A stretch of 52,308 nucleotides of DNA from Candidatus Eiseniibacteriota bacterium (GTDB lineage Bacteria > Eisenbacteria > RBG-16-71-46), in NCBI GenBank assembly GCA_025360715.1, contig JANYBS010000033.1, positions 1 to 52,308 of the forward strand, given 5' to 3'. The translations under genes and the position numbers were made by a program. Below, piece after piece: positions 26,842 to 47,478 of this stretch (position 1 is its first letter; the number at the start of each line of letters is the position of its first letter). The notes under the pieces were generated by a model. It was given only the letters and a program-made list of their open reading frames with translations. It was not told the DNA's origin and made no database searches.

Positions 26842-26939
26842 GGGAGCGAATGGGTTCTGGTGGACCCCGGGGACTTCAAATCCCGCGGTCGGGCGCGCAC
26901 AGCGTCCGAGGTGGGTTCGATTCCCACGCGTTCCCGCCA
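26842..26939 (+). tRNA. selC: tRNA-Sec (TCA)
   Basis: 98 bases with the hallmarks of selenocysteine tRNA: anticodon TCA in the loop CTTCAAA, an extended acceptor (GGGAGCG with CGTTCCC plus an A.G pair), a long variable arm (CGGGCGC-gcaca-GCGTCCG), a T-arm GTGGG-TTCGATT-CCCAC and an encoded GCCA end. The top pair of the anticodon stem appears to be a G.G mismatch. Directly downstream of selD, so the organism decodes UGA as selenocysteine. Confidence 0.95.
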
Positions 26940-45064: not shown

Positions 45065-45093
45065 TTGTGGCCGCCCGCTGCCTCCAGTAGGGT
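45065..45093 (+). promoter_or_regulatory. leaderless promoter for rnhA
   Basis: TTGTGG (45065-45070), 17-base spacer, TAGGGT (45088-45093). The -10 ends seven bases before the ATG at 45101, so transcription would begin at or next to the start codon. No ribosome site precedes the ATG, which agrees with a leaderless message. Confidence 0.6.
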
Positions 45094-45100
45094 GCCGCGC

Positions 45101-45550
45101 ATGGACGCGACGACACCCCACAGCAAGACGCATTGGACACTGAGTTGTGATGGCGGCTCGCGGGGCAATCCCGGGCCGGCAGCCTACGGCTTCGTGCTCT
45201 GCGATCCGCAGGGGCGCGAGGTCGAGGCCAAGGGCGAGTACATCGGCACCGCCACCAACAACGTGGCCGAGTACAAGGCGCTCATCGCCGGGCTGCACGC
45301 TGCCGTGCAGCTGGGCGCATCGCCGCTCGCCGTGGTGATGGACTCGGAGCTGGTGATACGCCAGATGACCGGGCAATACAAAGTGAAGAACGAAGGCCTC
45401 AAGCCATTGCACCAGGAAGCGCGAATGGTGTCGGGCAAGCTGGTCAAAGTGAGTTGGTCGTCGGTGCGTCGCGACGACAATAGCCGTGCAGACGGCTTGG
45501 TGAACCTGGCGCTGGATGAAGTGCAGAAGAGACCTGAGTCCAACAGGTGA
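45101..45550 (+). CDS. rnhA: ribonuclease HI family protein
   Basis: Degrades RNA in RNA-DNA hybrids. 149 residues. The four acidic active-site residues are seen: Asp in SCDGGSRGNPGPA, Glu in NNVAEYKAL, Asp in VVMDSELV and Asp in NSRADGLVN. It is of the compact type without the basic protrusion, as in archaeal/Bacillus YpdQ-like enzymes. The final 18 bases lie within the RNase P RNA gene that follows. Confidence 0.92.
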   Translation: MDATTPHSKTHWTLSCDGGSRGNPGPAAYGFVLCDPQGREVEAKGEYIGTATNNVAEYKALIAGLHAAVQLGASPLAVVMDSELVIRQMTGQYKVKNEGLKPLHQEARMVSGKLVKVSWSSVRRDDNSRADGLVNLALDEVQKRPESNR

Positions 45551-45944
45551 TCGCGCGGCGCGCGCTGAAGCCTCCGCCTACGGCGGGGCGCCAAAGTGCC
45601 GACGTGAGGAAAGTCCGAACTCCACAGGGCAAGGCGCTGGGTAATCCCCAGGGGGCGAGAGCCTACGGAAAGTGCAACAGAGAGCAGACCGCCAACGGGC
45701 GGCGCGGAACAACGCGCCGCTGCGGGCAAGGGTGAAACGGTGAGGTAAGAGCTCACCAGCGGCGACGGCGACGTCACCGGCTCGGTAAACCCCGCCTGGA
45801 GCAAGACCGCATAGAGGGGGAGGTGTGTGTCCCGCACCGCTATCACCCCAGGGTCGGTCGCATCGAGGTGGTTGGAGACAACCATCCCAGTCAAATGATC
45901 ACCACGGAGTCATCCGACAGAATTCGGCTTACGGGGGACTCGGG
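45533..45944 (+). ncRNA. rnpB: RNase P RNA (type A)
   Basis: Catalytic RNA that trims tRNA 5' ends. The conserved blocks are clear: GAGGAAAGTCC of P4 (45606-45616), CAACAGAGAGCAGACCGCC, GGTGAGGTAAGAGCTCACC, CGGTAAACCCC, GGAGCAAGACC and the 3' ACAGAATTCGGCTTA. P1 is CCTGAGTCC (45533-45541) with GGACTCGGG (45936-45944), and P2 is GGTGATC (45546-45552) with GATCACC (45897-45903). P1 begins inside the last codons of rnhA and ends one base before the next ATG. Confidence 0.96.
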
Positions 45945-45945
45945 T

Positions 45946-47478
45946 ATGAACGCACGAAAGGGCCCGGCGGCAGTAGGCCGCCGGGTCGTCGTGTATCCGA
46001 AGAAGATGGCGGGCGGTGCCCCAAGCGCGGGCAACTTCGGCGCGTGGCCGGTGCTGGCCGTGGCCGCGCTGGCGTTCGCGCTCTACCTGCCCACGCTGCG
46101 CGCCACCTTCGTATGGGACGATCTCGACCTGATCGTCCGCAACCGCGACCTGCATGCGCTGGCGTGGTGGAAGCTGGCGACCACCGACTACTGGCATGCG
46201 GCCGGCGGCGGCACGGGCATGTGGCGTCCGCTTGTCATGTGGTCGTTCGCGCTCGATGGCGCGATCTCGCACTTCGACCCGGCGTGGTTCCATCTGGTGA
46301 ATGCGCTCGCGTATGCCGCGAGTGCGGCCGTGCTCACGCTGCTCGCACGGCGCTGGAGCGGCTCGATGCTGGCGGCGCTCGTGGCCGGCGCGTGGTTCGC
46401 GCTGCTGCCTGCGCACGCCGAGGCCGTGGCCTGGATCGCCGGGCACACCGATGTCTTCGCGACGCTCTTCACGCTGCTCACGCTGCTGGCGCTGCCGCGT
46501 TCGCACGTCGCGGCGGCCGTGCTGCTGTTCCTGCACGTGCCGTAACTGTGGCCGTGGGCCGCGCACAGCCCGCTGCTGCACTGGGCGCCGCCCGCGCTAC
46601 CCTGGAGCGCGGCGGCTTGGGCGCTGCTCGCACTGTTGCTGGCGCTGCTCGTGCGCTGGGCGGTGGTGCCGGCGCGCCGCGCGACCGCCGCGGCGCTCGC
46701 GCTGGCGGTGCTGCCGATGCTGCCCCCGGGCGGAGGCATCGCGAGTGTCCCGCAAGTGGCGGTGTGGCGCGACGACCTCACACGCGCCGCGCGCGTGGCG
46801 GCGAGTGACCCGCGCGACGCCGATGCGAACCTGGGGCTAGCCGATCAACTGGCCGCGCAAAGCCGCTTCGATGAGGCCGAGGCGCAACTCGCCGAAGCCG
46901 GGCGGCGCGCGCCGGGGTCGGCGGCGGTGCGCGCGGGCTTCGCCGGACTGCGCTATCGCCAAGGCCGTTTCGCCGATGCGCTCACGCAAGCCGATGCGGC
47001 GCTGGCGATCGATCGCGGCTCGCTTGGCGGACAGCTGCTGCACGTGAAGAGCCTGCTACGCCTGCAGCGCGCGAGCGAGGCGCTTGAGTTCGCGCGTGAG
47101 GCGTGGAGCCACGGCGGTGTCGGTGCGCCGGCCATGGCGGCTTTGGGCGAAGCCTTGCTCGCGAACGGCCGCGACACTGCGGCGGTGACCGTGCTACGCC
47201 GCACGGCCGACGAACTGCCGGGCGACGGCGAACTCGCGTACGCGCTCGGCGTGGCGGCGGCCCGCGCGGGAGACTTGGCGCAGGCGCGTGAGGCGTTCGG
47301 CCGCTGCGTGGAGTCGCAGCCGCAGAACGACACGGCATGGCTGCTGCTGGCCGGCACGTGTCACAAGCTTGGCGACGATGCTGGATGCGAACGCGCGCTG
47401 GTCGTGGCGGCGGACTTGCCGCAGGCCGGCGATGGCCGCGCGGCGGCCATGCGGCGCGAGTTGCTGCAAGGCCGCTGA
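45946..47478 (+). pseudogene. membrane glycosyltransferase-like/TPR protein interrupted by a stop
   Basis: A single frame of about 510 codons broken by TAA at 46543-46545; both parts are in the same frame. The first 199 residues have membrane helices and motifs (FVWDDLDLIVRN, MWRPLVMWSFALDGAI, HLVNALAY, AWIAGHTDVFATLF) of the polytopic family that ends in TPR repeats, often called DUF1736/TMTC-like. The second part continues with one or two helices, VAVWRDDLTRAARVAASDP and four or more TPR-like repeats. The region around the stop looks shorter than in relatives, so an internal deletion is possible too. It may be a decaying gene, a sequencing error, or two separate proteins (the second from TTG 46636). 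Confidence 0.7.

Follow-up and report, generated by a model that had tools for sequence, protein, structure and literature searches.

The 52,308-nt stretch of DNA analysed here (the window; 68% GC) carries an RNase P RNA gene, rnpB, that begins inside the coding sequence of the gene before it, rnhA. The two have 18-19 bases in common, which comprise the whole 5' strand of the P1 helix, J1/2 and most of P2. This arrangement is real, larger than first described, and conserved among relatives of the organism. As to how the RNA is made, we lean towards the view, based on sequence comparison, that rnpB forms the 3' portion of a transcription unit shared with rnhA and is released from it by processing; such a mechanism is plausible.

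Results

The predicted rnpB is a class A RNase P RNA gene on the strength of the following: (i) the RF00010 covariance model matches 45535-45946 (+ strand) with 239.7 bits against a gathering score of 100 and covers model positions 1-367; (ii) the predicted RNA has CR-I, GAGGAAAGUCCG, at 45606-45617 and CR-V, ACAGAAUUCGGCUUA, at 45917-45931; (iii) in L15 the model aligns GGGU at 45851-45854 to the consensus GGGU, the GGU of this loop being the part of class A RNA that binds tRNA CCA; and (iv) the P1 and P2 helices are both formed. A covariance model search found one copy in the genome. A full-length model match, the conserved core sequences and both helices are thus what the window's RNA has in common with the RF00010 class, whereas its 5' P1-J1/2-P2 strand differs in doubling as protein-coding sequence. 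The window also holds a tRNA-SeC gene, at 26842-26939.

The upstream gene, rnhA (45101-45550, + strand), encodes a protein of RNase HI type with Pfam RNase H domains (RVT_3/RNase_H) and the tail QKRPESNR*, and its last codons lie within P1-P2. Codons P-E-S are the 5' strand of P1, CCTGAGTCC (45533-45541, + strand), which pairs with GGACTCGGG (45936-45944, + strand) over 9 bp with one U.G. A further pair, A45532-U45945 (T45945 in the DNA), can lengthen P1 to 10 bp, in which case the helix directly abuts the ATG at 45946. The helix is weakened on its inner side by A.G mismatches at 45542/45935 and 45543/45934. The rnhA stop codon, TGA at 45548-45550, falls within the conserved 5' strand of P2, GGTGATC (GGUGAUC in the RNA; 45546-45552, + strand), which pairs with GATCACC (45897-45903, + strand). 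The original prediction that P1 is built from the last rnhA codons is therefore borne out by RF00010, by the P1 and P2 pairing and by the relatives described below; the overlap had been understated, as J1/2 and P2, with the stop codon, are also shared.

A covariance model that put the 5' end of rnpB after the rnhA stop had been named as a refutation of the overlap; the model in fact starts at 45535, ahead of the stop at 45548-45550. The model score by itself is weak proof of this boundary, since a search cut at 45551 still scored 223.7 bits, a loss of only 16 bits. The predicted 5' boundary is supported more by comparison. Across 15 family sequences, pairing holds in 162 of the 165 cells for P1, and two-sided changes occur in both helices: C-G to U-A at pair 1 of P1 in one sequence (L118), and GGTGATC/GATCACC to GATGATC/GATCATC in P2 of another (L123). 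In the latter case (G-C to A-U) the changed base doubles as the third position of the final rnhA codon. P1 is built from quite different sequences in class relatives that do not belong to the family.

The junction is readable in 18 family genomes, and in every one of them rnhA is directly 5' of rnpB. The rnhA reading frame ends inside P1/P2 in 12 of them, of which 11, the window included, stop on the UGA of P2 (usually with the tail ..ESPR*) and one, G007, at a UAG within J1/2. In the other six, namely four congeners (G001-G004), G015 and G019, it stops 1-4 nt short of the model start. This is the comparison of P1 position relative to rnhA in related genomes that had been suggested. The P1-P2 sequence is nearly identical whether rnhA enters it or stops short, which argues that the RNA dictates the sequence and that the protein tail follows; residues PESNR are probably passengers of the RNA. 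An rnhA tree gave only a lower bound of two on the gains and losses of the overlap; two loci (L112 and L113) were scored there as overlapping, as the last A of the stop can pair in P1, and are counted as abutting in the 12 of 18.

Beyond the family, rnhA overlaps rnpB by 62 nt (G021, locus L082) and 80 nt (G022, locus L102) from the model start in two class relatives, where its frame is open through CR-I and so runs deeper than in the window. In a genome of another phylum (G052) the UGA of P2 again serves as the rnhA stop, and in a deltaproteobacterial locus (L033) the two genes overlap by 3 nt. The order rnhA then rnpB, on the same strand and within 100 nt, also occurs in Desulfobulbaceae, Bacillota, Armatimonadota and one actinobacterium. 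A phylum-level search gained no genomes beyond the class. In one family of the class (f5), eight loci (L085, L086, L088, L090, L091, L093, L095 and L099) have a conserved leader, GTAACAGGCAGG, before P1.

It is very improbable that the junction arose during assembly, through two sequences being joined into a chimeric contig at rnpB. One relative's metagenome contig (G005:C139, locus L116) is indeed a chimera with G001: from about +290 of rnpB onward it is nearly 100% identical to G001, and before that point about 50-90%. In the window's locus, however, the P1 strands pair coherently across the gene, and many independent genomes have the same junction.

Another question is whether the overlap means anything for regulation. 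It could be a neutral by-product, in which rnhA lost its own stop and now ends on the UGA that P2 always provides, with no regulatory link between the genes; we regard the case for and against this as evenly balanced. The near constancy of P1-P2 would fit, as would the mixture of overlapping and abutting states within one genus and the fact that the RNase H domain match does not extend beyond about residue 136 of the protein. Random stop loss does not account for genes that abut or overlap in 18 of 18 family genomes with no promoter close to rnpB. This reading is, in any event, compatible with co-transcription of the two genes.

Promoter-like sites were sought with a strict pattern, TTG-N19..21-TANNNT, bearing in mind that promoter rules in this phylum may differ. 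In the window a match, TTGTGG-N17-TAGGGT (45065-45093, + strand), stands before rnhA, its -10 ending 7 nt ahead of the ATG. Of 17 family genomes, 14 have the pattern immediately ahead of rnhA, with the -10 mostly 6-8 nt ahead of the start codon, a spacing as in leaderless genes. It is otherwise rare: the + strand of the 52 kb window has four matches, and 13 of the 16 matches in 56 kb of relatives' loci are the site before rnhA. No match was found within rnhA or before P1 in 18 family genomes scanned up to 650 nt before P1, one of which (L128) has its region cut by a contig end. By comparison, 12 of 22 class relatives without the overlap carry the pattern within 40 nt of P1 (12/22 versus 0/18, one-sided Fisher about 1e-4, computed by hand with kinship ignored). 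A full-consensus sigma70 scan of the region returned no site. The genome's tmRNA gene has no strict match within 150 nt upstream, so the motif is not a mark of every stable RNA. A conserved motif before rnhA and none near P1 together favour a single rnhA-rnpB transcript that is subsequently processed.

The main rival to a processed transcript is a cryptic promoter inside rnhA. According to this alternative, rnpB has its own, non-consensus promoter there and starts at P1, in which case rnhA mRNA stays uncut and the overlap comes at no cost. Strong promoters of their own are normally required for stable RNAs, and rnpB of E. coli, likewise a class A RNA whose ends form P1, differs from the window's in having its own promoter at the mature 5' end and no coding overlap. 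Moreover, one class relative (G021) has TTGCAA-N17-TACGTT inside rnhA, 39 nt before P1. We nevertheless consider a separate promoter unlikely in the family, as no family genome has the strict motif inside rnhA, 17 of the 18 loci scanned over 95 nt upstream of P1 lack a TANNNT at promoter spacing, and a search for the trace of a hidden promoter found no excess synonymous conservation at the rnhA 3' end, a result that is neutral with regard to co-transcription. Counted against the co-transcript model are the G021 motif, the possibility of a non-consensus promoter inside rnhA, the lack of the strict motif upstream of tmRNA, and the four same-genus relatives in which the genes abut and do not overlap.

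On the 3' side of rnpB a GC-rich hairpin (45952-45994, + strand) begins 7 nt after P1. Its position is conserved: in 16 of 18 family loci a hairpin of this kind, lacking a U tract, starts no more than about 30 nt from P1, whichever gene follows. The window's hairpin has no T run, and a terminator scan of the region found no intrinsic terminator with a U tract. An ORF for a membrane protein fragment (45946-46545, + strand) starts at the ATG adjoining P1 and has a second in-frame ATG at 46007. An in-frame TAA at 46543-46545, either a nonsense mutation or a sequence error, splits this gene, and the same frame resumes as a TPR ORF at 46636-47478. The P1 3' strand, ending at 45944, does leave one base before the ATG at 45946, as the original prediction had it, and the ribosome-site-like GGGGGA (45933-45938) lies 7 nt before that ATG. 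The window, G001, G002, G012 and G015 all have an ATG right after P1 and a frame open through the hairpin, and in G002 no other ATG, GTG or TTG precedes the hydrophobic stretch of the ORF. In locus L129 the interval from P1 to the first hydrophobic stretch of the membrane/TPR ORF apparently has no ATG, GTG or TTG. From these features, ATG 45946 may be the true start of the next gene, with GGGGGA in P1 as its ribosome site. The further suggestion that mature RNase P RNA would hide this start is possible and a weaker claim than the overlap: the ATG is present in only some relatives, the gene 3' of rnpB is membrane/TPR in some family genomes and recJ in several others, and the window's ORF holds the TAA and the second ATG.

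Discussion

Our working model for the favoured, processed transcript is as follows. A single sigma70-like promoter directly before rnhA would give an rnhA message, leaderless or nearly so, that reads on through rnpB, and the ribozyme would be freed by processing at the foot of P1. We propose an enzyme of RNase E/G type as the candidate because a TIGR00649 search for RNase J in this genome, which is 96% complete, gave no match; an RNase E/G is encoded (517 bits). As the 5' strand of P1-J1/2-P2 would double as the last rnhA codons and stop, a given RNA molecule could serve as intact rnhA message or fold into the mature ribozyme, but not both. Cut rnhA messages would then be without a stop codon, making tmRNA necessary; a tmRNA gene is present. 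The earlier suggestion that maturation cuts into rnhA mRNA is favoured by the comparative evidence but holds only if the RNA is made by processing, since a promoter inside rnhA would require no cut. A stronger form, in which excision from rnhA mRNA is the only source of the RNA in this family and translation of rnhA into P1/P2 is in competition with folding of the ribozyme, strikes us as improbable.

There is precedent for the processing part of this model. In S. aureus, transcription of SA1279 (gpsB) continues into rnpB, and the joint RNA is then processed back to the 5' end of P1. The region of processing (+452 to +477) lies beyond the 3' end of the SA1279 ORF; there is also a second, weak promoter at P1, and RNase J trims the RNA (PMC3937233). 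The likeness is an upstream gene's transcript that enters rnpB and is processed, which is predicted for the window from sequence comparison. The window differs in that coding sequence overlaps P1 and P2, no P1 promoter was seen and RNase J had no match. A limited literature search found nothing relevant on rnhA-rnpB linkage or on rnpB overlapping a coding sequence. Within that search, the coding overlap is the new part, a processed gene-rnpB transcript being already known in S. aureus.

The adjacency of rnhA and rnpB in several phyla is worth recording by itself, and annotation of the two as separate, non-overlapping genes is wrong in the lineage of the window. Here the terminal helices of an essential ribozyme are spelled out by codons for another ribonuclease. 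This clean natural case opens the question of how one transcript can accommodate both a stable RNA and an mRNA. If the RNA were made only by excision, in competition with rnhA translation, two ribonucleases would be set against each other on one RNA.
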